A DNA stretch of 56,934 bases from Candidatus Zixiibacteriota bacterium (GTDB lineage: Bacteria; Zixibacteria; MSB-5A5; GN15; JAAZOE01): contig JAZGGI010000007.1 in assembly GCA_036480375.1 (NCBI GenBank), forward strand, positions 1 through 56,934, written 5' to 3'. Below the pieces are notes generated by a model. That model worked only from the letters and a program-made list of their open reading frames with translations, was not told the DNA's origin and searched no databases. The position numbers and the translations under genes were made by a program. Below are positions 3,350 to 32,439 of the stretch, piece after piece (the first letter of the stretch is position 1; the number at the start of each line of letters is the position of its first letter).

Positions 3350-3356
3350 ACCTCAT

Positions 3357-3818
3357 CTATTGGAATATATATGTACTCGATGACGATGATCTATTCAGAT
3401 TCTGATGATCCAGCCACGATACGGCTACGGTTATCTGGACCAATCCGGCAGGGATAAGAGAGTCGGTGGCGTTGTCTTCCATCACGATGGTTCGCGTGAA
3501 TACTCCTGGATCGCCCGATGAATAACCGGTGCAAACAGTATCGCGGCCCATTTCAGTTTGGCCGACCTCGCCTCTTTCCCAGACAACCAAATCGGCGTCA
3601 TTAAACGGAAGGGCCGGCAACGGGTCCATCCCCTCATAAAGCTCGATTTTTTCCTTGATGAGATTGGAGACAAACGAATTATCACGAGCAATTACGTTTC
3701 CCTTAACGGAAATTATAAACATGGGCGCCAAACCCAACACTCCAAAAGCCAGGATTAAAATCGCGATCATGACTTCGAGTAAACTCACGCCTTTTTCATT
3801 TTTTATCATCTTAGACAT
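3357..3818 (-). CDS. PilV-like type IV pilus minor pilin
   Basis: About 153 residues from the ATG at 3818 (a GTG at 3839 would add seven). The leader ends EKG/VSLLEVMIA, a textbook prepilin peptidase site with Glu at +5, followed by a hydrophobic helix ending GVLGLAPM. The pattern LLEVMIAxLILAFGVLGL is characteristic of PilV/PulI-type minor pilins. The mature domain is short. It is the first gene of the minus-strand pilin cluster. No PilY1, PilE, PilM-Q or prepilin peptidase gene is in the window, so the main apparatus must lie elsewhere. Confidence 0.8.
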   Translation of the reverse strand: MSKMIKNEKGVSLLEVMIAILILAFGVLGLAPMFIISVKGNVIARDNSFVSNLIKEKIELYEGMDPLPALPFNDADLVVWERGEVGQTEMGRDTVCTGYSSGDPGVFTRTIVMEDNATDSLIPAGLVQITVAVSWLDHQNLNRSSSSSTYIFQ

Positions 3819-4076
3819 AAACCTATTCCTCATTTTCACAAGAAATATGTACAGATTCCATGCCGTCCCGGAATATATTGGGGTAGAGGTGTAAAAAGCC
3901 TCGTATCTTATTGTAATGATAATAGATAGGATTGGCGGGCGAGTCCGGACCGGGCCAGTTTTTTTCGGGAATTTTATGGGTCAAAGACTATAATTATTGG
4001 ACGTTTCCCATAGTTCTTAATGCGTAATTGCATTCAAAAACAGCCAAGAATCTTCCCGAGATGGCAAGGCTATTGA

Positions 4077-4961
4077 TCAAGGCCCCACAGATGTAATGTT
4101 TCCACCCTCCAAATAATTTTCCAATCCGTCTTCCAGCAGAGGGAAAAAATCATAACCAGTAATTAGCTCAAGCTGATCAACACACAGGCAATATTCTTCA
4201 AATGTGTATGGCAGGGTATCTGAAGCGTTGGGTATTAGATAAGCCGCCATTGAAAAGACGCTGTCATCATTCATAAAAAGAACTGCTTTATAAAGATGGG
4301 TTGGAATAGCCACCCGATTATTGAGAAAAGTATCCGGCTGCTGATTGGGAGTATCAAAAAAATGTCCGGTGATAATCCATCCATTGCCAATAGACATGAT
4401 ACGATTTCTGATTGACACTTCCAGCGCCTTCCATTTGTACTGATTTATTTTTTCATGCTGGGGGCTTATGTTGGTCCAATAATAAGTTGAAGCGTAGGCC
4501 AGCGAGCAATATCTAAATGCAGCGGCCGGAGCGACATGCCCTTTATCGTAAGGATTATATGAATAATCGTAATCCCGGGCCTGACAATCACTGCTAATAT
4601 CCTGATCAATTTTGTTATTGGCTGAACGAGTGGTATCAAGAGACAGCATTGAATCATTCAAATAATAGGCCGCCCAGTAGGGGATTTTCCAGTCGCAATT
4701 AAAATTGATGGTGAACCATTCTTTTGCCAGCCAGTCGCCCGAATCGCAGGAAATCCCCCAGCGTAAATTAGTCGAATCTGAAAGGATTGTTTGATTACCC
4801 GGATCAAATATTGGCTGGCGATCAGAAAGGTCTGATATGTCATTTGGCCGAATTCGCTGCGACAAATCCGGACCGGCGGTGTCAGTTTTATCGCAACTTA
4901 TTAGTACCGCAAAAAAAAGCGGCGCAGTCATACAAAAGGCGAGAAGGCATATTGATTTCAT
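4077..4961 (-). CDS. DNA/RNA non-specific endonuclease, lipoprotein
   Basis: 294 residues, starting at the ATG at 4961, which follows a GGGAGGT ribosome site. A lipoprotein signal peptide ends LISC (Cys about 23), so the protein should be anchored in the envelope. The nuclease domain shows DKGHVAPA around residue 138, a variant of the DRGHxxPA motif with the catalytic His, then TNISPQ with the metal-binding Asn region, and IPTHLYKAV near the C-terminal third. These are hallmarks of the NucA/Serratia nuclease family (beta-beta-alpha metal fold), which cuts DNA and RNA. Arg to Lys in the motif is the one visible change. It is isolated and probably has its own promoter. Nutrient scavenging from DNA or defence of the surface are plausible roles. 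Confidence 0.85.
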   Translation of the reverse strand: MKSICLLAFCMTAPLFFAVLISCDKTDTAGPDLSQRIRPNDISDLSDRQPIFDPGNQTILSDSTNLRWGISCDSGDWLAKEWFTINFNCDWKIPYWAAYYLNDSMLSLDTTRSANNKIDQDISSDCQARDYDYSYNPYDKGHVAPAAAFRYCSLAYASTYYWTNISPQHEKINQYKWKALEVSIRNRIMSIGNGWIITGHFFDTPNQQPDTFLNNRVAIPTHLYKAVLFMNDDSVFSMAAYLIPNASDTLPYTFEEYCLCVDQLELITGYDFFPLLEDGLENYLEGGNITSVGP

Positions 4962-5030
4962 TGTTACCTCCCGGTTCAATTTTGGATTGTTTTTCGGTGA
5001 TGTTTATAGTGTGATTCCAATAAATAATAA

Positions 5031-5047
5031 ATACTTATTATAAGTAT
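5031..5047. promoter_or_regulatory. 17-bp perfect palindrome upstream of the nuclease gene and recG
   Basis: ATACTTAT and ATAAGTAT flank a single central T. It lies in the divergent spacer 70 bases upstream of the nuclease start and 177 upstream of recG. An operator for a dimeric regulator is possible. The AT-rich composition means chance or a weak hairpin cannot be excluded. Confidence 0.3.
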
Positions 5048-5223
5048 GTCAAGTAAAATAATGCATATACAACTAAAATGGTTTTGATTCGATATCTATG
5101 ATAAATAACAATCGCTGAAGTATTTGGGCATAGATTAATTAACCGTGACGCATTCTTTACTAAGGTCTCTCAAAGTTCTCGTTAATGATTGACTTAAGGG
5201 AAATCCGAGATTAGTTTGTCCTC

Positions 5224-7308
5224 GTGGCGAAGTTGGAATTTACAACCGATATTCAATTTCTCAAAGGAGTCGGTCCCAAGAGGGGAGAAGTTCTCAAAGC
5301 GCATGGCATCGATACCGTCGGGAAATTGCTCTATTATTTTCCTCGAAAATATATTGACCGCTCCGAAGTCGATACCATCGCTTCCCTGCAGGAAAACGAT
5401 TATAAGACGGTTATCGGAAAAGTCCTCGGCAAAGGGCTCCTCAAAGGCGGAAAAACAAGGCTGGAAGTTATTATCGGCGACGAGACCGGGCATTTATCGC
5501 TAATGTGGTTTGCCGGATATAGATATCTGGAGAAGCAATTCAAAAAGGGCGATTTGCTGGCTGTAACCGGGACGGTGACTTATTTTCAGAATTATCAGAT
5601 GCTCCATCCCGAGTATGAGTTTATCGGTGGGGAAGGCGATGAACAGATTCATACCGGCCGAATCGTTCCGATTTATCATGGCACGGCGGAGTTGAACAAA
5701 GTCGGTTTGACATCCCGGACGATTCGCAAACTGATTAAAACCGCGCTGGATTCGCTTGAGGAAAATATTGAAGAATATTTACCGGATGAAATCATTAAAA
5801 ATGAGAAATTAAAATATCTTCCCGAAGCGATTGTCAATATCCATTATCCTGAGGATGCAAAATCCGCTCGGGAGGCGAGGCAACGATTGGCTTTTGATGA
5901 GTTGTTGTTTTTGCAATATCTGATTTATAACCGCAAAGCCAAGTATAAAGAAAAAGAGAAAGCCAAACCGTGCACCCGGCCGGGCAAATTATTTACTCAG
6001 ATATTAGACGGTTTGCCGTTTCAGCTAACGCCGGGACAGAAGAGTAGTGTTGATGATATCGTAAACGATATGACTTCGAAAAAGTCGATGAATCGTTTGC
6101 TGCAGGGTGATGTCGGTTCGGGCAAAACCGTCGTGGCGATACTGGCGGCGGTCCTGGCGGTTGAAAACGGCGGTCAGGCGGCGGTGATGGCTCCGACTGA
6201 GATACTGGCGTCGCAGCATTATTCGGGCTGGAAAGATATTCTGGATAGATGCGGAATTAAATCACGTTTACTAATCGGATCGATCAAAGGAAAAGAAAAA
6301 AAAGAAATTAACAGCGCATTGGAATCGGGCGAGATAGACATTATATTCGGAACCCATGCCATTATCAGCAAAACGGTAACTTTTTCCAATTTGAGTCTGG
6401 TTGTCATTGATGAACAGCATCGTTTCGGCGTCATGCAGAGGAGCAAACTGGCCGAGAAGGGGGACATGCCGGATCGTCTGGTGATGACCGCGACGCCAAT
6501 CCCGCGGACGCTGGCGATGACGCTGTATGGAGATTTAGATGTATCCACCATTCCTGATTTACCTCCGGGAAGAAAACCGGTCCAAACGGTGTGGCGATTC
6601 GCCTCGAAAATCGGTGAGATTTACAAATATATCGATTCGGAATTGAATAAGGGCAACCAGGCTTTTGTTATATATCCGTTGGTTGAGAAATCGGAAAAGA
6701 TGGATTTGCAGGCGGCCGAAGAAGGGTATCAGGAACTTGTCGAACTTTTGCCGCATAGAAAGATCGGACTGGTCCACGGGCGGGTCAAAGCGGATAAGCG
6801 GGATAAAACGATAGACGATTTTCATGACGGGAAGCTCGATATTTTGGCAGCCACAACCGTTATTGAAGTAGGTCTTGATATTCCCAACGCCAATATTTTG
6901 GTGATTCAGCACGCTGAGCGGTTTGGGTTGTCGCAGCTTCATCAGATGAGGGGCCGGGTTGGTCGGGGCGAACGGCAGGGATTGACCGTTGCGGTAGCGT
7001 ATAAACCGATGTCGGATATCGGGCGGAAGCGTCTGGAGTATTTTACGTCAACTACGGACGGTTTTAAGATTGCCGAGGCTGATTTGGAACTGCGAGGTCC
7101 GGGCGAATTTTTTGGCACTCGACAACATGGTTTGCCTGAGTTTCGAGTCGCCAACCTGGTATTGGATCAGGAACTGCTTGTCTCGGCTCGCAAATGGGCG
7201 GAAGTCTTGTTCCGTCATCGCCGCGATAAAGAAAATGAAATACGATTTTTATTGAACCATGCCGCGATTTTTTCTAATATGAATCCGGATTTAGTGGATG
7301 TCGCTTAA
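5224..7308 (+). CDS. recG: ATP-dependent DNA helicase RecG
   Basis: 694 residues, the usual RecG length. RecG remodels stalled replication forks and Holliday junctions. The N-terminal wedge/OB region opens with FLKGVGPKRGEVLKAHGI. The helicase core shows Walker A GDVGSGKT (about 296-303), the motif II box DEQHRFGV (about 395), TATPIPRTL and QMRGRVGRG (about 573). The C-terminus has the expected ELRGPGEFFGTRQHG segment. The start is GTG at 5224, because the family's N-terminus aligns from there. The next gene (DUF1844) starts 21 bases later and probably shares the transcript. Confidence 0.97.
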   Translation: MAKLEFTTDIQFLKGVGPKRGEVLKAHGIDTVGKLLYYFPRKYIDRSEVDTIASLQENDYKTVIGKVLGKGLLKGGKTRLEVIIGDETGHLSLMWFAGYRYLEKQFKKGDLLAVTGTVTYFQNYQMLHPEYEFIGGEGDEQIHTGRIVPIYHGTAELNKVGLTSRTIRKLIKTALDSLEENIEEYLPDEIIKNEKLKYLPEAIVNIHYPEDAKSAREARQRLAFDELLFLQYLIYNRKAKYKEKEKAKPCTRPGKLFTQILDGLPFQLTPGQKSSVDDIVNDMTSKKSMNRLLQGDVGSGKTVVAILAAVLAVENGGQAAVMAPTEILASQHYSGWKDILDRCGIKSRLLIGSIKGKEKKEINSALESGEIDIIFGTHAIISKTVTFSNLSLVVIDEQHRFGVMQRSKLAEKGDMPDRLVMTATPIPRTLAMTLYGDLDVSTIPDLPPGRKPVQTVWRFASKIGEIYKYIDSELNKGNQAFVIYPLVEKSEKMDLQAAEEGYQELVELLPHRKIGLVHGRVKADKRDKTIDDFHDGKLDILAATTVIEVGLDIPNANILVIQHAERFGLSQLHQMRGRVGRGERQGLTVAVAYKPMSDIGRKRLEYFTSTTDGFKIAEADLELRGPGEFFGTRQHGLPEFRVANLVLDQELLVSARKWAEVLFRHRRDKENEIRFLLNHAAIFSNMNPDLVDVA

Positions 7309-7781: not shown

Positions 7782-8708
7782 ATGAACCGATCGGATAAAT
7801 ATACACGTTTTATTGAAGGCTTTGGACGATCGGTCAGGGAAAACGAGTTAATGTCCGCGTACACCACGTTTGGGACAGGAGGACAAGCGGATCTTTTTAT
7901 AGATGCTTCGGATACTGACAGCCTGTCACGGGCTATTGTACTCGCGAGAAAGTTATCGATTCCATATTTTGTAATCGGTCAGGGCAGTAACCTGTTGGTC
8001 AGTGATTCCGGCTATCGTGGATTAATAATTCGGAACTGCATCCGGCGTATTGAGGTACAAGGCAATGATATAATCGCCGGAGCCGGAGAGATGCTCGATG
8101 AGATTGTAGATTTTTCGGCCGAATGTTCATTGACAGGATTTGAATTTGCCGCAGGAATCTGGGGAACGATTGGCGGTGCTGTTTATGGAAATGCCGGAGC
8201 CTATGGCAGTAACGTCGGAAAGATATTAAAGTCCGCGGAAATTTTGACTGAGGACGGTTTTGTAAAAATGGTCAACCGGGAAAATCTGGGATTCGCCTAT
8301 CGGCATTCCCGATTGAAGGAAACTAATGATTTGATAATCTTTGCAACCTTTGGACTTGTACCGGGAAATAAGGATGAAATCAAAGTCAGGATAGAGGAAA
8401 TTCGTGGCGATCGATTGCGGAAACATCCATCGGACGCCTGCAGCGCCGGTTGCTTCTTCAAGAATGTCGAGGATGCGGCGCAGCCTCACGGAAAATTGCC
8501 GGCGGGAAAACTTCTTGATGAAATCGGGGCTAAAGAGATGACTTATGGAGGCGCCGGAGTTTTTGAAAAGCATGCCAACATTATTATCAATAGGGGAAAT
8601 GCGACGTCAAAAGATATCAGACATTTGGCCGATAAATTGAAACGAGAAGTAAAGAAAAAATTTGATATTGATTTGCGAGAAGAAGTTATTTGTCTCGGAG
8701 ATTTTTAA
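7782..8708 (+). CDS. murB: UDP-N-acetylenolpyruvoylglucosamine reductase MurB
   Basis: 308 residues. MurB reduces UDP-GlcNAc-enolpyruvate to UDP-MurNAc with NADPH and FAD, the second committed step of peptidoglycan synthesis in the cytoplasm. FAD-binding motifs are visible: VIGQGSNLLVSD near residue 65 and GTIGGAVYGNAGAYG near 130. The catalytic region near 220 reads SAGCFFKN, where most relatives have SxGSxFKNP, so the usual proton-donating Ser appears to be Cys. The compact C-terminus with GAxVFEKHANIIIN fits the shorter type II enzymes. An AAGGGG site precedes the ATG. Confidence 0.95.
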   Translation: MNRSDKYTRFIEGFGRSVRENELMSAYTTFGTGGQADLFIDASDTDSLSRAIVLARKLSIPYFVIGQGSNLLVSDSGYRGLIIRNCIRRIEVQGNDIIAGAGEMLDEIVDFSAECSLTGFEFAAGIWGTIGGAVYGNAGAYGSNVGKILKSAEILTEDGFVKMVNRENLGFAYRHSRLKETNDLIIFATFGLVPGNKDEIKVRIEEIRGDRLRKHPSDACSAGCFFKNVEDAAQPHGKLPAGKLLDEIGAKEMTYGGAGVFEKHANIIINRGNATSKDIRHLADKLKREVKKKFDIDLREEVICLGDF

Positions 8709-8710
8709 TA

Positions 8711-8719
8711 AAGGAGGTA
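8711..8719 (+). promoter_or_regulatory. Strong Shine-Dalgarno sequence without a matching gene
   Basis: AAAGGAGGT just after murB is a near-perfect ribosome binding site. The nearest downstream start is a TTG opening a four-codon frame (to the TAA around 8743), and the sprA ATG is more than 50 bases away with an in-frame stop between. It could be a leader peptide site, a standby site for sprA or a relic. Confidence 0.35.
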
Positions 8720-8771
8720 TTTATAGCGACTTGATAATTATGTAAACTTAACGCCTTAATTTTTTCGTTTA

Positions 8772-11700
8772 ATGATTATAAGGCTCGACAAATTTATAAT
8801 TCGTATTATCCCCATTATTTTGGGGGTTCTGTGTGTGTGTGTGATAGCGCAGGCTGCGCCTCCTCAATTCCAAGGGTCCTTAAAGTATCCGACAAATATG
8901 TTTACTCCTTTCCCCGACGGCAGGCCGCCTGATTTTCGGAAACGATTAATCGCGACTATTACTCCCGAGGAAAATGTATCCCTGGTGAATTTGCGTTTTG
9001 GAAAGCAATATGAGTTTGTATATGATCCGTCAGATTTTTCCGTCACTTATACCAAGTTACTGCGAGATAACAGTAAACTGACTCCGGTCACTTCCGGATA
9101 TGACTCCTTTCTGACACGGCGTCTTGAATCGAATTTGAACTTGTTGAACTATGAGACAACTCGGGGATCGTTGGCGAAGGCCCAGCGTAATAAGGCGGGT
9201 GGATTATTCCAGATAAGTATTCCCATCCCTTCTCGGGCATTTGAATCGATTTTTGGCGAAGGCGGCGCCAGCCTCAGAGTATCAGGGTATCGAAAAATCT
9301 CATTTATGGGGCGTTCGACCTGGACGGATAAACCTAAAACGGCTTTTAATCGGCAATCGAAATTTCCTACCCTGCAGATGGAACAAATCTATCGCTTCGA
9401 TATTGAGGGAACAATCGGTTCGAAAATCAGCGTCAAGGTCAGTCAGGATTCTCGTAACGATATCCCTCTGGCGAATAGACTGATTCTTCGATACCGCGGT
9501 AATGACGATGACATTTTGCAGACAATTGAAGCGGGAAATACGACCTTGAATTTACCCTCGACCAAGTTTCTCGCTTATTCAACCAGGGTTCAGGGCTTGT
9601 TTGGAATTAAGGCTACCGCTAAACTGGCCGATTTATCAGTCACCGCGATCGTTTCCCAGGAAAAGGGAACAACTGAGTCAATTGAAATTTCGGCCGGGGG
9701 ATCAGCGTCGGCAACAAACATAATAAAGGACATTGGGTACCGGAAAAATACGATATTTGATTTGGGCCGTAAGCCTCTGATACGAGCCTTTTCGGATAAG
9801 TTACCCGAGCCTGACAAATATGATTTCGCGCCCAGGGATTCCATCACCAAAATAATCGTATATCTTGATGACAATACTAATGATGATGCTGAAAGATATT
9901 CGCGCCAATTCGGTATTTGCTATATCGATCCGCAAGACACGGCATCTGACGATATTTCAGGAGTTGAATACCGCAAAGAAGGTTATTTCGAAGTGATGGA
10001 AGATATCGATTATTTCATGCATCCGACCGAACATTATATCCATTTCATGCGTCGCGCTTTGAATTCCAGAGATTTGATGGCGGTCTATCTGGAAATTTAC
10101 CGGGTTGCCACCGGCCAGGTTGACACAATTGGAAGCATTAGCGACACGCTCAGGTTGAAATTGATTAAGCCGGTTAGTATTACAAAAGCCAATCATCATG
10201 TCTGGGAATATGAATGGAAAAACGTTTATTTTCTTGGTGGGACCAATTTAGAGCTCAATGAACTCGATATCAATATATTCCGAGGTACTCCGGTCGGACG
10301 GGCGGTCGATCCGGACGATCTCGAAAATCAGGATGGTATCCCGTATTTGCAGATTCTGGGTCTTGACGGCGGTGATAACTTTGGAAACGGAGCGCCGGAC
10401 GGCGAGCTCGATCGGGTCGTGCATGTCGATGAAATTCTTGGCTTATTGTTCTTTCCCACGAGGCATCCCTTTAATTCTCGATTTGCGCTCGATACTGTCG
10501 GGGATTCATTAGTCTATATATCAAGCGGAGAAATTCCCGAGCAATATGTCGCCTTACAGGATTCGATTCCGGAGATATATGTCAATCCCCAGACGAGCAT
10601 TCAGCAACAATCATCGGGCTATTATTTGGCGGTCGCTACCAAAGGACGCGGGCAATCGGAAATCGCTCTAAATGCCACGAATATTATTGAGGGTTCAGAA
10701 GTTGTTACATGGAACGGCCAAAGACTCACCCGGGGAAAAGATTATCGTATTGACACCGATTTTGGACGGTTAACGTTACTTGACGAAAAGTACACTGATA
10801 TTAATTCGAATTTGTCGATTATGTTTGAAAAGGCTCCTTTCTTTTCATTGGCCAAGAAATCTTTATTTGGAACGCGCCTCGAGTACGCCCCCAGCAATGA
10901 TTTTAGGGCGGGGGCGACGGTTTTATACAAATCGGATAAATCCACGAATCGTAAACCAAGGGTTGGCGAAGAAACGTCGAAAACGCTCGTATGGGACGCC
11001 GATTTAAGGTACCGATTTGAGAACCAGGTATTTACAAAGCTTTTGAATGCGCTTCCTTTTTATTCGTCGGAATCGCCTTCCAAAATGCAAATATCGGCGG
11101 AATTGGCGCAATCACGCCCAAATCCAAATGTCGATGGGCAAGTATATATTGATGACTTTGAAGGGAGTCGCGATAATTTTTCACTTAGCATATTTCGGGG
11201 TGCCTGGCGAAATGCATCGACGCCGGCGTTTATAGATGATTCTCTTAACGTACGCGGTAAGATCGCGTGGCATAATCCAATTGAGCAGATTTCCATCAAT
11301 GAGATTTATCCTCAAAGAGATATTGGTACTGGAGAGCAAGCAGGTACTAATATCCTCGAAATTCAATACAAGCCGGTCGATTATTATATTCGACAAAACG
11401 CTGGGGATACAACCGCAATCGATACTTTAGCCGTCGAACCCGAGGTAACCTGGAATGGATTTATGCGAAACATTCCGGAGGGTGCCGTGTTACAGCTTGC
11501 CCACGCTCAACTCCTTGAAATGCGAATAAATGGTGATGTCGGGATTATGCATATCGATCTGGGGCGTATTACCGAAGATATCAACGGTGACGGAATAATG
11601 ACAACCGAAGATAGAGATGGTTTTAAGGTTCTTGATGAAGGCGAGGATGTCGGTATAGACGGTATTCCGGATTCGCTTGAGCTAGGCTATGATCCGGATA

Positions 11701-14947: not shown

Positions 14948-16330
14948 ATGACTAAAAATAAATCCGAATTATTTTCAGGCTTACGGGATTTTCCTTCAGT
15001 GGAGATTCTCTCGGGGTATCCCCAAATAAAACGATTTGATAACATTATTCCGAAGCCTTTAATTCTGAAAATAATCAAAGAAACGGTAGCGAATGAAAAA
15101 GAAAGGTTCAGAGCCGGTGACAAATCGATTACTATCGAAAAGCTAACAGGCTCAATCTGCGCCGAGATAAACAAGCTGGCACATCAAAATCTGAAACCGG
15201 TCATAAACGGCACCGGCATAATTATACACACCAATTTGGGGCGCGCTCCACTGGCTCATCGTCATCTTGAAGACGCTGTCGAGATGGCCTGCGGCTATAG
15301 CAATCTTGAATATGATATTTATACGGGAAAGAGAGGCAAACGAGGAATCCTGGTCGAGAGTCTGCTATCATCACTTTGCGGGACTGAAAGCGGCACCATG
15401 GTCAACAATAACGCCGCGGCATTATTTGTGATCTTAAATACCCTTGCCAATCGCAAAGAAGTGATTATATCTCGGGGTGAGTTGGTTCAAATCGGGGGAG
15501 GATTCAAGATTCCGGAAATTATGACACGGGCCGGAGTTAAGTTGATAGAAATAGGAACGACGAATCGGACATCATTGAATGATTATAAAAAAGCGATAAC
15601 ATCCAAAACAAAAATGATTCTCAAAGTGCACCGCTCAAATTTTGTCCAAAGCGGTTTTGTTGAGGAGACATCATTGAAATATTTGGCCGGACTGTGTCGA
15701 GAGCATGATATCCTGCTAACCCATGATATCGGTTCGGGTTTGATGTCTCTCCCACCGGGATTCAAAATAAAAAATGAACCGGTCGTTTCCGAATCGGTTC
15801 AGGCCGGAGCCGATTTAACCTGTTTTTCGGGCGATAAGCTCTTTGGGGCGGTTCAGGCAGGATTAATCGTCGGGTCAGATAAATTAGTTAAAAAAATCAA
15901 GAGCAATCCCATATTCAGAACTGTTCGATGCGATAAAATATCGTTCGCGGTCATGGCCAAAATATTGTCCTTGTATTTACAAGGCGAGCGGTTTGAGGAA
16001 ATCCCGATCTGGAAAATGATAAGCGCGACTCCGGCGGAATTAAAGAAACGGGGCGAAGCGATTTTGACCGCCGCTGGAAAGAAAAATATAATTCTCCGGG
16101 CATCGAAAGCTTATCTCGGCGGGGGCAGCACTCCGGAGCAGTCTATCCCTTCGCTGGTCATATCAATTAAAACAAAATCCAATCCAAATAAATTTGCAGC
16201 TTCATTCAGAAATTTTTCACCGCCCATAATCGGCCGGGTTGAAAATGATGAATTCTTAATCGATTTGCGCACGGTATTTCCCAAACACGACGGTGATATT
16301 GTCGCGGCCATAACATACCTGGTAAATTGA
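14948..16330 (+). CDS. selA: L-seryl-tRNA(Sec) selenium transferase SelA
   Basis: 460 residues. SelA is a PLP enzyme that converts Ser-tRNA(Sec) to selenocysteinyl-tRNA using selenophosphate. The N-terminal helical domain is followed by INGTGIIIHTNLGRAPL, a strong SelA signature. The PLP lysine sits in SGDKLFGAVQAG (about residue 296), and HDIGSGL lies before it. Its stop overlaps the start of selB by one base (TGATG), so the two are translationally coupled. Selenophosphate synthetase and tRNA-Sec are not in the window. The organism probably makes selenoproteins, though none is recognised here. Confidence 0.95.
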   Translation: MTKNKSELFSGLRDFPSVEILSGYPQIKRFDNIIPKPLILKIIKETVANEKERFRAGDKSITIEKLTGSICAEINKLAHQNLKPVINGTGIIIHTNLGRAPLAHRHLEDAVEMACGYSNLEYDIYTGKRGKRGILVESLLSSLCGTESGTMVNNNAAALFVILNTLANRKEVIISRGELVQIGGGFKIPEIMTRAGVKLIEIGTTNRTSLNDYKKAITSKTKMILKVHRSNFVQSGFVEETSLKYLAGLCREHDILLTHDIGSGLMSLPPGFKIKNEPVVSESVQAGADLTCFSGDKLFGAVQAGLIVGSDKLVKKIKSNPIFRTVRCDKISFAVMAKILSLYLQGERFEEIPIWKMISATPAELKKRGEAILTAAGKKNIILRASKAYLGGGSTPEQSIPSLVISIKTKSNPNKFAASFRNFSPPIIGRVENDEFLIDLRTVFPKHDGDIVAAITYLVN

Positions 16331-18231
16331 TGATGTTTGTTCTTGGTACGGCCGGACATATTGATCATGGCAAATCCTCATTAATCGAGGCCATTACCGG
16401 CATAGATCCCGATCGCCTGCCGGAGGAAAAACAACGGGGTATGACAATTGACCTTGGGTTTGCCTGGATGAAACTTACCAATGGTGAAGAAATCGGTCTT
16501 GTTGACGTTCCCGGTCATGAGCGATTTGTACGAAATATGGTCGCCGGGGCGGGCGGAATAAACGCCGCCCTTCTGGTTATTGCCGCCGATGATGGTTGGA
16601 TGCCCCAAACCCAGGAACATTTTGATATCCTCAAACTTCTCAACCTCGAATATGGCTTAATCGCATTAACTAAAACTGATTTGGTGGAATCTGATTGGGT
16701 TGGGTTGATATCGTCGGATATCAAAGAAAAGATCAAAGGCTCCTTTCTCGAAAATGCTCCGATTATTCCCTGTTCATCCGAGACCGGCGAAGGCATTCCG
16801 GAAATCGTAAATGCCGTTGGTGAGATGGCTATGCAAATCAAGGCCGTGGAAGATATCGGAAAGCCGCGACTGTTTATCGACAGGTCTTTTATCCTGACCG
16901 GCATCGGTGTTGTCATAACCGGAACCAGCCGGGGAGGAGGATTTTCGGCCGACAGCGAGGTTTATCATTTCCCCTCCGGTGATAAAATACGAATCAGGTC
17001 ATTACAATCTCACGAGAAACAGGTCGATAACGTCGGACCGGGAACGAGAGTAGCAATTAATCTTACGGGGGCTGATAAAGAAAAGGTTAAAAGAGGCGAT
17101 GTCATTTGCGGATTTCCATATAAGAAGAAACCGGAGGTTTTCACGGCGGATATTTCAAACCTCGCCGATTCGGCATTGGTTCTAAGCGAGGGAAGAAAAG
17201 TCCTTCTGATTTATGGCACAACGGAAGCGGAGGCTATCCTAAGACCGGTCTCTGATTCAGGAATTAAGCCAGGCGAAACCGGAATAGCGGTAATAAAATC
17301 ACTGAGCCCAATATGTGCTTTTGTCGGTGATTATTTTATTTTGCGTCTGCCGACTCCTCAAAAAACGATTGGCGGCGGGAAGATACTTGATATTCTTGAG
17401 AATATGCCTCGCCGCAAAGTCTTGAATTCTTTACTGCCGGTTTGGGCAAAAAGGATTGATGGTAGTCTTGAGTCGTTGCTTTTAACCGAACTCGAAAAAC
17501 AATTATTTATGAACGCCAATGACATTCTATTTTATTCCATTTTTTCCGATAGGCAAATTTTTGAAACGCTTAAAACACTCGAAATATCAGGAAAGATTAT
17601 AATAAACGGCGATTATGTCGGTCTGGCCGCGAGAATAAATGATTTGACTGAGAAAATCAGCATATTGCTGGGTAATCTTCACAAGAAAAAGTCATATTTG
17701 AGAGGTATGACCGGGGAAAATATTGCTGGAAGGACAAAACAAGTATTCGACTCGCAGTTTATCCTGTTTCTTAAATATCTTGAGAATGAAAATAAAGCAG
17801 GACGGGTCAATCAATTTTATCATCTACCGGGATTCAAGCCGTCTCTGGACGATGCGATGCGCGATCAATCGGAAAAAATATTGGGAGCAATTAAAACCGC
17901 CGGGCATAGTTATTTGACGATAGCTGAAATCGAAAGGAAATTTGAAAATAGTCGCCGGACAATAAATTTCCTGCGGGACGAGGGAAAAATCCGGATTGTC
18001 GCTCCTGAATTTATCGTAAGTTCTGATTCGTGGAAAGAAATTCTTGAGTATTTGGAGAATAAATTTGACGAAAACGGGAAATTGACATTGGCCGAATTTC
18101 GAAATCATTTCCAGACCACGCGCAAATATGTTCTTCCTCTTTTGGAATTTTTAGACCAAATCAAAATAACCAAACGCGACGGGGATTTTCGCATCAAGGG
18201 AGCCAGTTTCGATGAACGCCATTCTATATAA
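16330..18231 (+). CDS. selB: Selenocysteine-specific elongation factor SelB
   Basis: 633 residues from the ATG overlapping the selA stop (a TTG at 16327 or a second ATG at 16333 are alternatives). SelB delivers Sec-tRNA to UGA codons that carry a SECIS hairpin. The GTPase domain shows G1 [23 protein letters not shown]3 [12 protein letters not shown] and G4 as TKTD, the SelB variant of NKxD. Beta-barrel domains follow. The C-terminal third contains winged-helix repeats that bind SECIS RNA (for example the segment with [20 protein letters not shown]). The amidohydrolase gene starts 20 bases before its end. Confidence 0.95.
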
Positions 18232-19958: not shown

Positions 19959-21284
19959 ATGGTTAAGACAATTGAAGAGGTTCTTGATCGAATTGACGCC
20001 GCCGGTGTGAAATATATTCGCCTCTGTTTTACTGATATTCTCGGGCGAATAAAGGGAATGGCTCTGACCCGGTCGGAGATTCCGGAGGCTTTGGAAGGCG
20101 GACAGGGATTTGACGGTTCATCAATTGAAGGTTTTGTGCGCATTGAAGAATCGGATTTGATGGCAATTCCCGATGTCAAGTCTTTCCGTATTTTCCCCTG
20201 GCTAATCGGTGGGGAACGCGTCGCTATGATGTTTTGCGACATACAAACTCCCGATGGCCAGCCTTACGGCGGTGATCCCCGATATGTCCTCAGGCGCGCG
20301 TTGAAAAAGCTGGATGATAAAAACTGGACTTTCTATACCGGACCGGAGATTGAATATTTCTATTTCAAGAATGACCAGGCGCCTGAAATCATCGATAAAG
20401 GCGGTTACTTTGACTATAATACAGTCGATATCAGCACAACATTACGGAAGAAAACCGTCAATGCTCTCGAGAGTATTGGAATTCCGGTAGAATGCTCGCA
20501 TCATGAAGTAGCCCCCTCGCAACAGGAAATTGATCTGAAATACCAGGACGCCCTGGTTATGGCGGATTTCGCTCAGCTTTATAAATTTATCGTTAAGGAA
20601 ATCGCACAGGATAACGGATATTACGCCACGTTTATGCCCAAGCCCCTTTTTGGTGAAAACGGTTCGGGTATGCATACCCACATGTCAATCTTTGAAAATG
20701 GCCGCAACCTGTTTTTTGACGGCGATAAGCCATATCATCTGTCCGATATGGCCCGTCATTTTCTGGCCGGAATTCTTAAGCATATAAGCGAAATAACGCT
20801 CATTACCAATCAATGGGTAAACTCGTATAAGCGACTTGTCGCTGGATATGAAGCGCCGGTTTATATTTCCTGGGGTCGTCGCAATCGGTCCTCATTGGTG
20901 CGGGTTCCGATGTATCGCGTGGGCAAAGAAAAGTCGACCCGAATCGAGCTTCGCTCTCCCGATCCGGCCTGTAACCCTTATTTGTCTTTCGCAGTAATTC
21001 TGGCGGCCGGTATGAAAGGACTTGAAGGAAAATATGAATTGCCAGAGCCGATAGAGCAAAATATTTTTCATATGACTCCGAACGAGCGGGAAAAGCTGAA
21101 TATTAAAGGACTGCCCGCTACTCTGGAAGAAGCAATCGCCATTACTGAAAAATCAGATTTGATTCGAGAAACTATGGGCGACGATCTTTTTGAGAGATTT
21201 TTGGCCAACAAACGGGTTGAATGGGATGATCACCATATTCGCGTTTCGCAATATGAGATAAAAAAATATCTGCCTTTTCTATAA
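19959..21284 (+). CDS. glnA: Glutamine synthetase type I
   Basis: 441 residues, typical of the GSI-alpha class (about 440; GSI-beta enzymes are nearer 470). The enzyme makes glutamine from glutamate, ammonia and ATP as a dodecamer in the cytoplasm. The active-site segments are GFDGSSIEGFVRIEESD, PEIEYFYF, HHEVAPSQQEID, the GENGSGMHTHMS loop and SPDPACNPYLSFA. I see no 25-residue insertion or adenylylation tyrosine loop of the beta class, so control is probably by feedback or protein partners. It has its own promoter-like sequence, GGGAG upstream of the ATG, and a 99-base gap to the next gene. Confidence 0.96.
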   Translation: MVKTIEEVLDRIDAAGVKYIRLCFTDILGRIKGMALTRSEIPEALEGGQGFDGSSIEGFVRIEESDLMAIPDVKSFRIFPWLIGGERVAMMFCDIQTPDGQPYGGDPRYVLRRALKKLDDKNWTFYTGPEIEYFYFKNDQAPEIIDKGGYFDYNTVDISTTLRKKTVNALESIGIPVECSHHEVAPSQQEIDLKYQDALVMADFAQLYKFIVKEIAQDNGYYATFMPKPLFGENGSGMHTHMSIFENGRNLFFDGDKPYHLSDMARHFLAGILKHISEITLITNQWVNSYKRLVAGYEAPVYISWGRRNRSSLVRVPMYRVGKEKSTRIELRSPDPACNPYLSFAVILAAGMKGLEGKYELPEPIEQNIFHMTPNEREKLNIKGLPATLEEAIAITEKSDLIRETMGDDLFERFLANKRVEWDDHHIRVSQYEIKKYLPFL

Positions 21285-21383
21285 AAAATGATTTTCAGGC
21301 GTAATGTTCAAACAAGATGAATCGCTGACCGCCGGTCAAATCGCGACGGTGGTCAAATCAAGAAAAATTAGCGGGAGAAGAAA

Positions 21384-22175
21384 ATGCCTCACGTTGATAC
21401 CCAGGAAGTTTCAATCTATTACGAAACCAAGGGGCGGGGTTCAACGATTGTTTTTCTTCATGGATTTACTCTTGACAGGCGGATGTGGGGGACGCAGGTC
21501 GAGTATTTTTCAAAAAGGTTTCGGACGCTTGTCTATGATTCTCGCGGTCATGGAAAATCAGGCTGCCCCGAATCGGGATACTCCCGTGCCGATCGCGTAC
21601 GGGATTTGGCTGCCCTGGTAGAAAAATTAAGGCTGGCTCCGTTTCATATCGTCGGACTTTCGATGGGAGGGGCGACTGCCCTGGGTTATGCCATTGACCA
21701 TCCTGAGTCGTTGTTGTCCTTAACCCTGGCCGATACCGCCGCGGCTGGGTTTCAACCTCCGCCCAAATACAAAGATATGCGGGAACGGGTGGAGAGCATG
21801 ACTATTGCCGATATAAAACGGGTCTGGAAACGCAATGCTCTTTTTTATTATGCCCGAAAAAATCCGCAATTGCGCGATGAACTGGCGGAAATGATGGACG
21901 GTCATTGCGGAAATTTATGGACCGATCCCCAAAGAGGGACTTATAAAGACCGCGATGATGTCGTCTTATCATCAAAAATCAAAATTCCGACTCTTATTTT
22001 TATAGGTGAAAAAGATAAATTTTTCCTACCCTTAGCCAAAAAACTTCACCAAAATATAGAAAACAGTGAGATGGATATCGTCTCCGAGGTGGGGCATATG
22101 GTCAATATGGAGGATTCGAACAGATTTAATATGCGTCTGGAGCAATTTTTGGACAGGGTGGAGGAAAACCGGTGA
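21384..22175 (+). CDS. Alpha/beta hydrolase fold protein
   Basis: 263 residues. The first strand-loop reads FLHGFTLDRRMW, an oxyanion-hole HG motif. The nucleophile elbow is GLSMGG (Ser about 93), the acid is likely Asp in GEKDKFF and the catalytic His is in VGHMVNMED (about 237). This complete triad fits small esterases, lactonases or C-C hydrolases of the 3-oxoadipate enol-lactonase-like group. The substrate is unknown. No signal peptide is seen, so it is cytoplasmic. The stop overlaps the GTG start of the following membrane protein gene, which suggests coupled expression. Confidence 0.85.
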   Translation: MPHVDTQEVSIYYETKGRGSTIVFLHGFTLDRRMWGTQVEYFSKRFRTLVYDSRGHGKSGCPESGYSRADRVRDLAALVEKLRLAPFHIVGLSMGGATALGYAIDHPESLLSLTLADTAAAGFQPPPKYKDMRERVESMTIADIKRVWKRNALFYYARKNPQLRDELAEMMDGHCGNLWTDPQRGTYKDRDDVVLSSKIKIPTLIFIGEKDKFFLPLAKKLHQNIENSEMDIVSEVGHMVNMEDSNRFNMRLEQFLDRVEENR

Positions 22176-22738
22176 ATTATTTTGAGATTAATAAAAGGCT
22201 GGCGGCGATTAAAAAATTCAGAAAATTGTATTTGGATTATATCAGTTTCACCAATCGATTTGAGAATCCGGCCGCTCAAATGCTTTTGAAAAAAATGCGG
22301 CCGCTGGTTCCGATGACGATTGACTCGATGCGCGAGGCAAAAGTGGGAACAATCGTGACTCATGACGCTCCCGCCCGTGGATCTAAGCGCTATAAGATCA
22401 ATATTATTAAGGCGATTTTTCGCGAATCACTGGTGCGAAATTTCAATCTGGAAGACGATGCTCCTATGCAGGCCCTGGAAGCAACCGTAGTAAAATATGA
22501 AACCATGAAAAGTCGGGCGTTCTTTCAATTATTCAATCCGTTTTTCTGGTTTATCGAGTTTGTCGGATACGCCGCCGACGGGCCTTATACGTTAATTGAT
22601 AAGGCGGGTATCGATACTACCGAATTTCGCAAAACAGCGGGGGCCAAAACAATAAAATTATTTCTGATGGCCGTTATAATTCTTTTGACAGTCGAATTAA
22701 CGGGGTTGCGGGAATGGCTATGGGCCGCCTTTAATTAG
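22172..22738 (+). CDS. Uncharacterised protein with C-terminal membrane helix
   Basis: 188 residues of no family that I recognise. The start is GTG at 22172, preceded by a good GGAGGAAAA site and overlapping the TGA of the alpha/beta hydrolase (GTGA). The N-terminal 130 residues are basic and helical. A hydrophobic, aromatic patch lies at about 118-130 (rich in Phe and Trp) and a clear transmembrane helix lies at about 163-178 (LFLMAVIILLTVEL). It is probably an inner-membrane protein with a large cytoplasmic N-terminus. The coupling suggests a shared pathway with the hydrolase. Confidence 0.6.
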   Translation: MNYFEINKRLAAIKKFRKLYLDYISFTNRFENPAAQMLLKKMRPLVPMTIDSMREAKVGTIVTHDAPARGSKRYKINIIKAIFRESLVRNFNLEDDAPMQALEATVVKYETMKSRAFFQLFNPFFWFIEFVGYAADGPYTLIDKAGIDTTEFRKTAGAKTIKLFLMAVIILLTVELTGLREWLWAAFN

Positions 22739-22796
22739 CGATTAGTCATGATCCTCGATTTAGGCACAAAATAACAATCCTATCGGGCGGGGTGGA

Positions 22797-23243
22797 ATGG
22801 TCGCGTTTGATTGGGATGGCAAACGATTCGAAATACCAATAAATCAAATTCATCTTGAGAAAGACGCTGGAAAATTGATTCATCGGGATGGGAGTTTTGC
22901 TCATTTAAATCAGGCAATAATCGGTATTTTGGATTTCAATGTCACTTCGACGAAGTTAGCCGGACTTTTGGAACGTATCGAATCCGGAGAAATATCCAGA
23001 TTATTGGCTAAAGAGATATTTTCCGAAATGGCATCTTCCGGAAAATCATCAGATGAGGTTATTGTAAGCCAGTCTCTTGAACCAATTTCGGAAACTTCGG
23101 AATTAGAAAGTATTATTGACTCCATTCTCGGTCAAGAAAATGATAAAGTAAATCAATATAAGTATGGAAAAATCAAACTTTTTGATTATTTTATGGGTCT
23201 GGTAATGAAAAAAACCGGAGGCAGGGCGACCCGAAAAAAATAA
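22797..23243 (+). CDS. GatB-derived mini-protein (internal deletion; GatB/YqeY domain)
   Basis: 148 residues. Residues 1-45 resemble an internal piece of GatB, the catalytic subunit of the Glu/Asp-tRNA amidotransferase: INQIHLEKDAGKLIH corresponds to the family's RxHLEEDAGKLIH, and SFAHLNQAIIGIL to SLVDLNRxGxPLLEI. The sequence then jumps straight to the C-terminal tRNA-binding YqeY-like domain (LAGLLERIESGEISRLLAKEIF and QYKYGKIKLFDYFMGLVMKKTGG). Roughly 250 central residues and the N-terminal cradle of normal GatB are missing. The second Glu of LEED is Lys here. The frame is open and a GGGGTGGA site precedes the ATG, so it may be expressed. It cannot be a complete amidotransferase subunit. 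Retained tRNA binding is an inference. Confidence 0.65.
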   Translation: MVAFDWDGKRFEIPINQIHLEKDAGKLIHRDGSFAHLNQAIIGILDFNVTSTKLAGLLERIESGEISRLLAKEIFSEMASSGKSSDEVIVSQSLEPISETSELESIIDSILGQENDKVNQYKYGKIKLFDYFMGLVMKKTGGRATRKK

Positions 23244-23268
23244 GGATAATTTTGAGGGATAAACTCAA

Positions 23269-23874
23269 ATGAATGAGAAAGTGAGACTGGCTGTTTTCGT
23301 TTCGGGGGGCGGCTCAAATTTGCAATCTATTATGGATAATTGTTCGGCGGGCAATATCGACGCCGAAGTTGTTTTGGTTCTATCCAATAAGAAAAAGGCT
23401 TACGGTCTCGTCCGCGCCTCGGAAGCGGGTATAGATACGGTCGTTTATAAACGCAAAAAATTCTCAAATGGAAATGAGGCCGATGAATTTCTTTTGAATT
23501 TGCTTGATGAATATCGTATCGATATTATCGTTCTGGCCGGATATCTGAAAATGATCGCTCCTCCGGTGATTGATAAATATCGCGGCAGAATAGTCAATAT
23601 TCATCCCGGAACTTTGCCCAAATATGGCGGGAAGGGAATGTTCGGTTCCCGGGTTCATAAAGCCGTTATCGAAGCGGGCGAGAAGGAGACGGCGGTAACG
23701 ATACATTATGTCGATGAGATTTATGATCATGGTCAGATAATGGCTGAACGGAAAATACCGGTTTTGCCCGATGATACTCCCGATGAGCTGGCCGCCCGTG
23801 TGCTGAAAGTGGAGCATGAGCTATATCCCGAAGTAATCAAATTTCTTGTTGAAAAATACAGGAAGGAATCTTAA
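23269..23874 (+). CDS. purN: Phosphoribosylglycinamide formyltransferase PurN
   Basis: 201 residues, normal for the family. PurN transfers a formyl group from 10-formyltetrahydrofolate to GAR, the third step of purine synthesis. The N-terminal FVSGGGSNLQSIMD binds the ribose phosphate. The catalytic Asn and His are in IVNIHPGTLP (about 107-112), and the catalytic Asp lies in HYVDEIYDHGQI. It opens the purN-purC-purH run; purC begins 5 bases after its stop. Confidence 0.96.
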   Translation: MNEKVRLAVFVSGGGSNLQSIMDNCSAGNIDAEVVLVLSNKKKAYGLVRASEAGIDTVVYKRKKFSNGNEADEFLLNLLDEYRIDIIVLAGYLKMIAPPVIDKYRGRIVNIHPGTLPKYGGKGMFGSRVHKAVIEAGEKETAVTIHYVDEIYDHGQIMAERKIPVLPDDTPDELAARVLKVEHELYPEVIKFLVEKYRKES

Positions 23875-23878
23875 AAAA

Positions 23879-24769
23879 ATGGACTCTGTTTTAACAACCG
23901 ATATTAAGGAATACCCATTGTTATCCCGTGGAAAGGTCCGCGATGTATATGACCTCGATGATAAGCTGTTAATTATTGCCACCGATCGCATTTCCGCTTT
24001 TGACGTTGTTCTTCCCAACGGCATTCCCGGGAGAGGAAAAGTATTGACCGGTGTATCGGTGTTCTGGTTCGATTATCTGAAAGACATAATCGATAATCAT
24101 CTTATTTCTGCTAAAGTCGAAGAATATCCCAAAGATTTGCAGCAGTATAAAGATGTCCTCGAGGGCCGTTCGATGCTGGTTACCAGGGCCAATCGAATCG
24201 ACATTGAATGTATTGTTCGGGGTTATATATCCGGTTCGATGTGGAAAGAGTATAAAGAAGCCGTTAAATCGGGGACGACGACAGTGCATGGTTTTGAATT
24301 TCCGGCAGATATGAAGGAATCGGATAAATTAGCGGAGGCGATATTCACGCCATCTACCAAAGCCGAATCAGGACATGATGAAAATATTTCTTATGAAAAA
24401 ATGGTTGATGTTGTCGGGAATGAGACGGCTCAACTATGCCGGGACAAATCGCTGGCGATATATACCAAAGCGGCTGATTTCGCGCGGAAAAAAGGGATTA
24501 TAATAGCCGATACCAAGTTTGAATTTGGATTCGTGGGCGATAAATTAATTGTCATCGATGAAGTTTTGACTCCGGATTCATCGAGATTCTGGCCGGCCGA
24601 CGAATACGAGCCGGGAAAATCTCAGCCTTCGTTTGACAAACAGATTATCCGGGATTATCTTGACGGGCTCGATTGGGACAAGACGCCGCCCGGCCCGAAA
24701 TTGCCCGATGAAATAGTCGATCGGGCGTTGGCGCGTTATACAGAGGTGGTTGACCGTTTAACCGGTTAA
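23879..24769 (+). CDS. purC: SAICAR synthetase PurC
   Basis: 296 residues from the ATG at 23879, which follows GGAAGGAATC; an upstream in-frame start would overlap purN and add unlike sequence. PurC condenses CAIR with aspartate using ATP. The N-terminus LLSRGKVRDVYDLDDKLLIIATDRISAFD is the classical signature region, and GYISGSMWKEY and VLTPDSSRFWP follow. The length matches the long PurC form (about 300 residues) rather than the roughly 240-residue form. It lies between purN and purH. Confidence 0.95.
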   Translation: MDSVLTTDIKEYPLLSRGKVRDVYDLDDKLLIIATDRISAFDVVLPNGIPGRGKVLTGVSVFWFDYLKDIIDNHLISAKVEEYPKDLQQYKDVLEGRSMLVTRANRIDIECIVRGYISGSMWKEYKEAVKSGTTTVHGFEFPADMKESDKLAEAIFTPSTKAESGHDENISYEKMVDVVGNETAQLCRDKSLAIYTKAADFARKKGIIIADTKFEFGFVGDKLIVIDEVLTPDSSRFWPADEYEPGKSQPSFDKQIIRDYLDGLDWDKTPPGPKLPDEIVDRALARYTEVVDRLTG

Positions 24770-24797
24770 AGACCGCAGGCACGGAGGTTATTGGATA

Positions 24798-26372
24798 ATG
24801 CAGGATATGATGAAAATAAAAAGAGTTCTGATATCGGTTTCAGATAAATCGGGTTTGGTAGAATTGGGTGAGAGACTTTGTGAGATGGGCGTAGAGATTA
24901 TCTCAACCGGAGGAACCCTAGCGGCTTTGAAAGAAGCTGGAGTGCATGTTATCTCAATCGCGACATTTACCGGCGCTCCGGAAATTCTTGGCGGTCGGGT
25001 CAAGACTTTGCATCCCAAAGTACATGCCGGCATCTTATACAAACGCGATAGCGAAGAACATCAAAGTGAAATGTTGCAGCAGGAATATAAACCGATAGAT
25101 CTGGCAGTCGTTAATTTATATCCATTCGAGGAAACACTGGCTAATCCCAACTCCACCGACAGCGATAAAATTGAAAATATAGATGTCGGCGGCCCGACGA
25201 TGATAAGAGCGGCGGCCAAAAATTTTGATTCCGTGGCGGTAGTTACAAGTCCGAAAGATTATTCGGAGTTAATTTCGGAAATGCAAGCCAATGAAGGCGC
25301 TTTATCAGGAGAAAGCCGCCGAAATCTTGCCCGTAAAGCGTTTGCCTTAACTTCCCGGTATGACACGGCCATATCAGGGTATTTCTCGGAGACCGGTAAA
25401 AAGGAAAAGCAAATATCCATCGACGATGAGTTTCATTTGGAATATACCAAAGTGCAGGATTTGCGTTATGGTGAAAATCCTCATCAATCAGCCGGATTTT
25501 ACCGCATGAAAGGCTTTAGCGGCGTGACAATTGCCGATGCTGAGCAGCATTCCGGAAAAGAACTGTCATATAACAATATTGCCGATATTGACGCGACCCT
25601 TGATATGATATTGGAATACAATGGTCCTTTCGCGGTTGTTGTCAAACATGCCAATCCATGCGGGGCGGCATCGGCCGAAACCCTGGCCGAAGCTTATCAA
25701 ATGGCTTATGAAACCGATCCATTATCCGCCTTTGGATCAATTATCGGTCTTAACCGTATCGTCGATATGGATACGGCCATGCTGCTTCACAAAACCCCAT
25801 TTGTCGAGTGTATTTTAGCTCCCGGATTTACTGATGAGGCATTGGCCAAATTGAGGCGTAAAAAAGCCCGACGTCTTTTGTCATTGCCGTCAATTCTTGA
25901 TAAATTGCCAAATCCCGACAAGGTATTCAAATTTGTTCGGGGAGGGGTTTTGACTCAGGGATTTGATAATCTCGATGTTGATCCGGATAAGATTACTATC
26001 CCGACTAAGAATAAACCGACCGATGAACAGATGGAATCACTGACTTTCGGCTATAAGCTAATCAAATACGTAAAGTCAAACGCAGTATTGATTTGCAACG
26101 GCAAGGCCGCTGTCGGAATCGGAATGGGACAAACCTCAAGGGTCGATTCGTCGCATCTGGCGGTCAAGAGAGCCGGAGATCGAGCCAAAGGCGGCACTTG
26201 CGCTTCCGACGCCTTTTTCCCCATGCCGGATGGATTGGAAGTTGTCGCCGAGGCGGGGGTTTCGGCCGTTATTCAGCCCGGCGGTTCCAAGGGCGATCCG
26301 GATGTGATTGCCGCGGCTGATAAATACGGTGTGGCCATGGTTTTTACGGGAATCAGACATTTTCGGCACTAA
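24798..26372 (+). CDS. purH: Bifunctional AICAR formyltransferase / IMP cyclohydrolase PurH
   Basis: 524 residues, full length. The N-terminal IMP cyclohydrolase domain shows ALISVSDK-like [27 protein letters not shown] and [14 protein letters not shown]. The C-terminal AICAR transformylase domain shows [10 protein letters not shown], the catalytic [11 protein letters not shown] and [10 protein letters not shown]. It performs the last two steps of IMP synthesis. A GGAGG lies about 10 bases before the ATG. It ends the purine cluster; smg follows after 73 bases. Confidence 0.96.
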
Positions 26373-31983: not shown

Positions 31984-32439
31984 ATGCATAAAACGATGAT
32001 AGTTGGACGACTTAATTTGTTTAGTAAATTATACATGCTTATGGGAATTGTGATAGCATGGTTGTATATAACTTTATATTTAAAGGCACACATTATATCC
32101 AATAATTATATTGGTCTTCTATTATGCCTCTTTGCCTTAATACTAAGTGTCTATTTAATTCTATCTTTAATCAGAACACGAATAATCGTAACAGATAATT
32201 ATATTGAATATAGAAACATTAAAATTTTGCAGATACAATATAATAAAATTGATAGAATAACCGTGGGCACTCAATTTATTTTATATGGTGCAAATGCGAA
32301 AATTCCAATAAGTACATCAATAGATAAAAAAGAGGCGATAATAAATTATTTGATTCAGTCAGTCTGTAAGACTTGGAATTATCCCATAGAGGGAGATTTG
32401 ATAAAATTACAATCTCATTATGGAATTAAAATCAATTAG
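31984..32439 (+). CDS. Small membrane protein with PH-like domain (uncharacterised)
   Basis: 151 residues. Two membrane helices lie at about 15-35 and 40-62, then a roughly 85-residue soluble part. The pattern IIVTDNYIEYRNIKILQIQYNKIDRITVG is like bacterial PH domains (membrane-anchored small beta-sandwiches), in which VTxxxIxYRN and IxYxKIxxI recur. The similarity is by eye and moderate. The gene is notably more AT-rich than its neighbours, which may mean a recent arrival. It is flanked by intergenic palindromes on both sides. No good ribosome site is visible beyond AAGGGATG. Confidence 0.5.
   Translation: MHKTMIVGRLNLFSKLYMLMGIVIAWLYITLYLKAHIISNNYIGLLLCLFALILSVYLILSLIRTRIIVTDNYIEYRNIKILQIQYNKIDRITVGTQFILYGANAKIPISTSIDKKEAIINYLIQSVCKTWNYPIEGDLIKLQSHYGIKIN

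Follow-up and report, generated by a model that had tools for sequence, protein, structure and literature searches.

GatCAB is the bacterial Glu-tRNA(Gln)/Asp-tRNA(Asn) amidotransferase. Bacteria that possess both direct routes usually lack it, most gamma-proteobacteria being an example (PMC4206432), and the genome described here fits that pattern. Concerning the YqeY domain, its fusion to the GlnRS of Deinococcus radiodurans increases the affinity for tRNA(Gln) (PMC3927822).

The window—the whole stretch of 56,934 nucleotides analysed here, from a Candidatus Zixiibacteriota bacterium (G000)—contains an ORF, designated mini-GatB, that resembles these systems only in part. With the GatB of GatCAB it shares locus and ancestry, keeping residues ~99-141 and those from ~358-370 onwards (numbering of the GatB from G002, a genome of the same family and another genus), but it has lost ~98 N-terminal and 216-228 internal residues and has no GatA partner gene. 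With the standalone YqeY and the GlnRS-YqeY fusion (Deinococcus, PDB 2hz7) it has in common the C-terminal helical domain (2hz7 match, E 3.3e-9), whereas mini-GatB is derived from gatB in place, retains a core fragment, is unfused and diverges at an accelerated rate. As in the case of in-place remnants left after functional replacement, the partners are deleted, the neighbourhood is conserved, the composition drifts towards AT and the gene is shortened in related lineages; unlike them, it has an uninterrupted frame of 148 codons with a plausible start. The features of the locus are as follows:

19959..21284, + strand: glnA (glutamine synthetase), left flank; 79-81% identity to the same-locus glnA of G002 and G003
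21285..21383, + strand: site of gatA in G002, here a 99-bp gap without a remnant; tblastn with G002 GatA and GatB finds nothing
21384..22175, + strand: alpha/beta hydrolase, conserved neighbour; Pfam Abhydrolase_1, 63% identical orthologues next to gatB in G002 and next to the remnant in G003
22172..22738, + strand: 188-residue ORF, ancestral neighbour between the hydrolase and gatB or purN; orthologues in relatives
22761..22763, + strand: in-frame TAG directly 5' of the gatB-derived stretch (from the sequence; the six-frame segment begins at 22764)
22764..22796, + strand: gatB-derived codons before the new ATG (start of the GatB HMM match; alignments)
22797..23243, + strand: mini-GatB ORF, 148 codons (ORF call, Pfam)
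22764..22892, + strand: GatB core segment, equal to G002 GatB 99-141; 42% identity over 43 residues, E 6e-8; GatB_N
22893..22931, + strand: junction, residues 33-45, SFAHLNQAIIGIL, with ~216-228 GatB codons missing; placed by profile, uncovered by BLAST
22932..23240, + strand: GatB C-terminal (YqeY) domain; 47% identity to G002 GatB 370-468, GatB_Yqey 101.6 bits
23269..23874, + strand: purN, right flank; 66% identical to the G002 purN, which lies directly 3' of gatB there
23846..26372, + strand: purC and purH, right flank (synteny)

The mini-GatB ORF starts with ATG and spans 148 codons (22797-23243, + strand), exactly as first delimited, and both the Pfam and the DNA searches agree with the original prediction of an internal GatB segment joined to the YqeY domain. 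The Pfam family GatB_Yqey covers residues 35-145 (E 4.9e-29, 101.6 bits at a cut-off of 27, profile positions 26-136 of 148). The proposed GatB origin of residues 1-45 is borne out by GatB_N, which matches residues 7-45 (profile 106-147) just below its cut-off of 23.4 at the protein level (20.0 bits, E 4.4e-4) and above it at the DNA level (29.7 bits), where the match begins at 22764, i.e. upstream of the ATG. The cradle domain is nevertheless incomplete, positions 89-147 of the 277 in the GatB_N profile alone being present, and the NCBIfam gatB models score 62-102 bits, under their cut-offs of 314-680. In a six-frame search with a GatB profile built from the intact GatBs of relatives, the stop-to-stop frame 22764-23240 yielded two domains corresponding to model positions 108-149 and 369-478.

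Two sequence segments had been assigned to the GatB core. The assignment holds for IHLEKDAGKLIH, which corresponds to the GatB motif IHLEEDAGK and retains 7 invariant residues, but not for SFAHLNQAIIGIL (residues 33-45), which by profile placement fits the start of the C-terminal domain better than the core; neither of the pieces aligned by pairwise BLAST with G002 GatB includes it. The loss of about 250 cradle residues noted there amounts to ~216-228 internal residues (~142-357/369) and is accompanied by that of the N-terminal ~98. Most of the ATP/Mg cradle of GatB, together with its helical domain, is thereby gone; no direct repeats that might have mediated its deletion were found within 22700-23300. 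An AlphaFold2 model built with 18 sequences has confident helices from residue 51 (block-mean pLDDT 80-95) and low confidence for residues 1-43 and likewise for the junction; the tail domain could still fold, while the core fragment probably could not form a cradle. Mini-GatB cannot phosphorylate or transamidate aminoacyl-tRNA.

It should be pointed out that the homology to GatB extends 33 nt 5' of the ATG, up to the in-frame TAG at 22761-22763, the codons 22764-22796 reading AQNNNPIGRGG where the intact GatB has SQYDSPIGLGG. A purine-rich stretch, GGGCGGGGTGGA (22785-22796), does precede the ATG as the original prediction of a ribosome site had it, but its bases are Gly-Arg-Gly-Gly codons left over from the conserved PIGxGG motif. 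Judged from the sequence, the site is a look-alike and a by-product of coding sequence, because those codons are old and the TAG stands in frame before them. The case calls for caution in general: even where a frame is open and both its domain and its ribosome site look convincing, it may be a relic, its start signal made from old codons.

Concerning the neighbourhood, the order in G002 (L071) is glnA-gatA-hydrolase-gatB-purN-purC-purH, with gatA (7915-9375) flanked by glnA and the hydrolase, and that in the window is glnA-hydrolase-ORF188-miniGatB-purN-purC-purH, gatA being absent. G022, of another family in the same order, also has the 188-residue ORF between the hydrolase and gatB. This ORF (22172-22738) has no match in Pfam or NCBIfam; its orthologues are found beside gatB in G022 (40%) and in the gatB-less G004 (56%), G048 and G032. 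Throughout the order it is kept at 36-56% identity, with the hydrolase, gatB and purN as its neighbours. Neither a second nor a full-length gatB was found in the window's own genome (97% complete) by profile and DNA searches, the other GatB_N match being GatE, and no gatA exceeds the cut-off, the best candidate being an amidase paralogue (197 bits against 481).

It is thus close to certain that mini-GatB is the in-place remnant of the only gatB of its lineage. Since the synteny with G002 and G022 identifies it as the ancestral gatB in place, it is therefore not a duplicate. The proposal of a decaying duplicate consequently stands in its first word, backed by third-position GC content (GC3), conserved sites, branch length and distribution, and falls in its second, the genome holding no second copy and the ancestral position being occupied by this sole gatB-derived gene. 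Binding to the GatCAB complex, also proposed, is ruled out within the assembly, which has no gatA or full gatB and retains gatC alone. The latter (TIGR00135, 81 bits) is located at 6280-6564 (+) of L076 on contig C27. It is apparently intact in two genera without gatA over the cut-off or a full gatB, the other instance being G001 (C19:203622-203834); gatC may outlast its partner genes or serve another use.

The same locus in the relatives presents a series of states. In G002, gatB is intact; in the window, 148 codons from the ATG and 11 upstream are left, 159 in all; in G003, representing a second genus, ~85 residues remain, matching residues 59-145 of mini-GatB only, in an open frame that begins right after the hydrolase stop, overlaps purN and has no ATG or GTG. 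Nothing recognisable of gatB is seen at the locus in G004 and G006, and the matching gaps of G004, G005 and G006 gave no convincing remnants of gatA or gatB. Trees of the flanking genes resolve the family poorly (support 43-54) and do not separate a single loss from several. An orthologue of the same length and architecture is absent from all 60 relatives, the matches being full-length or partial gatBs except for the shorter remnant in G003. A scan against 84,980 species genomes, of a kind that catches close relatives only and may leave out the own and near genomes, gave no confirmed match to mini-GatB, and a second such scan with the neighbouring hydrolase returned distant hydrolases only. 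Across the order, all the relatives at least 90% complete and without GatB encode GlnRS (20/20; split into two fragments in G048). Six genomes of at least 90% completeness have no GlnRS (G007, G010, G015, G018, G020, G024), and all of them have kept gatA, gatB and gatC.

The base composition and divergence of mini-GatB point to relaxed constraint. Its GC3 is 0.318, compared with 0.45-0.48 in the flanking genes and a window mean of 0.449, a value as low being reached by 1 of 1051 same-length gene sub-windows of the window, and its total GC of 36.7% is close to that of intergenic DNA (37.2%); the intact gatB of G002 has a GC3 of 0.548, normal for that genome. Sites were counted as conserved where 80% or more of the 23 intact GatBs agree, with leave-one-out comparison. 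Mini-GatB has altered 11 of 33 such sites in the YqeY domain, against a mean of 13% in intact GatBs (2/34 in G002), and 8 of 22 in the core segment, against 7%, although some outlying intact GatBs (G007, G010, G028, G051) also show high counts. The YqeY branch of mini-GatB measures 1.05 versus 0.47 for G002, while in flanking genes the two branches do not differ (0.23 and 0.22). Pairwise dN/dS is uninformative, dS being saturated. A branch codon model, run from several starts with controls, reached lnL -3362.4 with omega 1 on the mini-GatB branch and -3366.7 with the background ratio, i.e. neutrality gains 4.3 log units, and the same change worsens the fit for G002 and G045; the result is supportive in kind, since synonymous sites are saturated and an omega of ~0.2 is still compatible. 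Within the window, GC3 reaches its minimum (0.245) in a separate 151-codon ORF at 31984-32439, which is a candidate foreign or decaying gene.

As predicted, the frame is open: it is uninterrupted by stops or frameshifts over its 148 codons and over the 159 with the upstream ones, an in-frame stop lying upstream only, at 22761, where the gatB reading frame once ran on. In simulations, a 159-codon frame stays open with P of 0.51, 0.26, 0.14 and 0.09 at 0.1, 0.2, 0.3 and 0.4 substitutions per codon, respectively, and of about 0.01 at 0.8-1.0. In mini-GatB, 2/10 and 1/13 near-invariant GatB sites (about 3/23) are changed, which suggests a much shorter neutral period than the excess divergence would, and on that account the open frame would be ordinary (P about 0.1-0.5). 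Were the excess divergence mostly neutral, the frame would call for an explanation, and were all of it neutral, its being open would be improbable. Taken together, mini-GatB has the ancestral locus, the loss of essential parts, the relaxed constraint and the lack of a functional copy elsewhere that mark a pseudogene, without a frame broken by stops or frameshifts; of a functional GatB it has the YqeY domain, but neither the complete GatB_N nor both partners, gatC being encoded and gatA over the cut-off being absent; and the same-architecture orthologues in other species that would mark a selected standalone YqeY are missing.

The explanation that we consider quite probable is that mini-GatB is a decaying, non-functional gatB remnant in its original place, presumably without any selected function. 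The genome encodes GlnRS (776 bits) and AsnRS (502 bits), both probably active, which would load glutamine and asparagine onto tRNA and would thus have made GatCAB dispensable. The locus would then have lost gatA, the first ~98 gatB codons and, in frame, the internal ~216-228. What was left could be read through, since the internal deletion did not shift the frame and since the Gly-rich PIGxGG codons are followed by a Met codon that could serve as a start site. The product would be at most a short-lived and unselected tRNA-binding peptide, and the remnant would be drifting towards loss, a course further advanced in the sister genera. Binding of misacylated tRNA, as envisaged in the original prediction, might still occur, yet conservation, base composition and distribution lend it no support. 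Taken alone, mini-GatB is an ordinary gene loss caught part-way; what gives it weight is that a central translation enzyme can be seen vanishing, with intact, part-deleted, quarter-left and absent states at one locus in one family, all of them in genomes with GlnRS.

A different fate would be the retention of the YqeY domain as a tRNA-binding protein in its own right, e.g. helping GlnRS to hold tRNA(Gln). The D. radiodurans fusion is a precedent for such a role (PMC3927822), the internal deletion leaves the frame intact, the YqeY domain is almost entire, with two thirds of the conserved positions retained and its fold predicted, and the own GlnRS, with a frame of 572 aa of which the core profile of 524 positions takes up most, has little space for an appended YqeY. 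We nevertheless regard it as very unlikely: mini-GatB loses conserved residues at a higher rate than most intact GatBs do, its GC3 resembles that of intergenic DNA, the protein occurs in no other genome—the G003 remnant being shorter and without ATG or GTG, and the closest gatB-less genomes having none—and a separate standalone YqeY is already encoded (L004, 1489-1941). The more specific proposition that a gatB stripped of its catalytic core has been re-used, its YqeY acting in trans as a tRNA(Gln) helper of GlnRS or forming a nascent free-standing YqeY, seems most unlikely. A pattern search for tRNA-Gln in the own genome returned no tRNA-Gln gene and a tmRNA only.

Selection might also act on the open frame and not on the protein, its translation keeping purN expressed through polarity avoidance or through translational coupling over the old gatB-purN junction. 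The gatB stop of G002 does overlap the purN start (L071, 5674-5681), and the remnants in G000 and G003 are both open despite their high divergence, the latter frame overlapping purN; against this, the purN of the window has a purine-rich site of its own, GAGGGA, and is separated from mini-GatB by a 25-bp gap, the purN of G004 and G006 sits behind 230-240 bp without a gatB-derived open frame, and recent decay leaves frames open by chance, all of which makes such coupling very improbable. As to the possibility that gatAB is intact in the genome and was cut down in assembly or sequencing, the full-length gatB of relatives at the same locus, one half of a refuting condition set in the original prediction, is in its favour, but gatA is cleanly gone from a different position, two separate gatB deletions would be required, the remnant carries many substitutions and differs from intact gatB in base composition, other genomes of the family have lost gatAB at the same locus, and neither gene is found elsewhere; its probability is almost negligible. 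The relic of a lost gene thus remains the preferred reading.

A side finding concerns GatD and GatE. The own genome carries gatE (4368-6359, - strand) and gatD (2989-4380, - strand), adjacent and overlapping, on contig C34 (L141), and the NCBIfam models of the archaeal enzymes are passed at their cut-offs (GatE 484 and 402 bits, GatD 511 bits). GatD is widespread in the phylum, 63 of the 98 genomes sampled there exceeding its cut-off, compared with 4 of 14 in a control set with four archaea among its members; within the order, GatE and GlnRS occur together, and the six GlnRS-less genomes are without GatE. GatDE was stated to be confined to Archaea in a 2022 review (PMC9499178), and according to a 2014 paper no bacterium was known with both routes to Gln-tRNA(Gln) (PMC4206432). 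A literature search, with subscription journals mostly outside its coverage, found no report of bacterial GatDE. The GatDE pair in a GlnRS-bearing bacterium is more surprising than mini-GatB and merits a study of its own.

With regard to individual GatD sequences, that of G023 (C15, L152) is intact except for an in-frame TGA at alignment column 244, where five relatives have Cys; it is possible, from the sequence, that the codon represents selenocysteine or a point mutation. In the GatD of G039, a TGA falls on a conserved Gly and is more likely an error or decay. The window itself contains candidate selenocysteine genes resembling selA and selB, recognised by eye, at 14948-18231.
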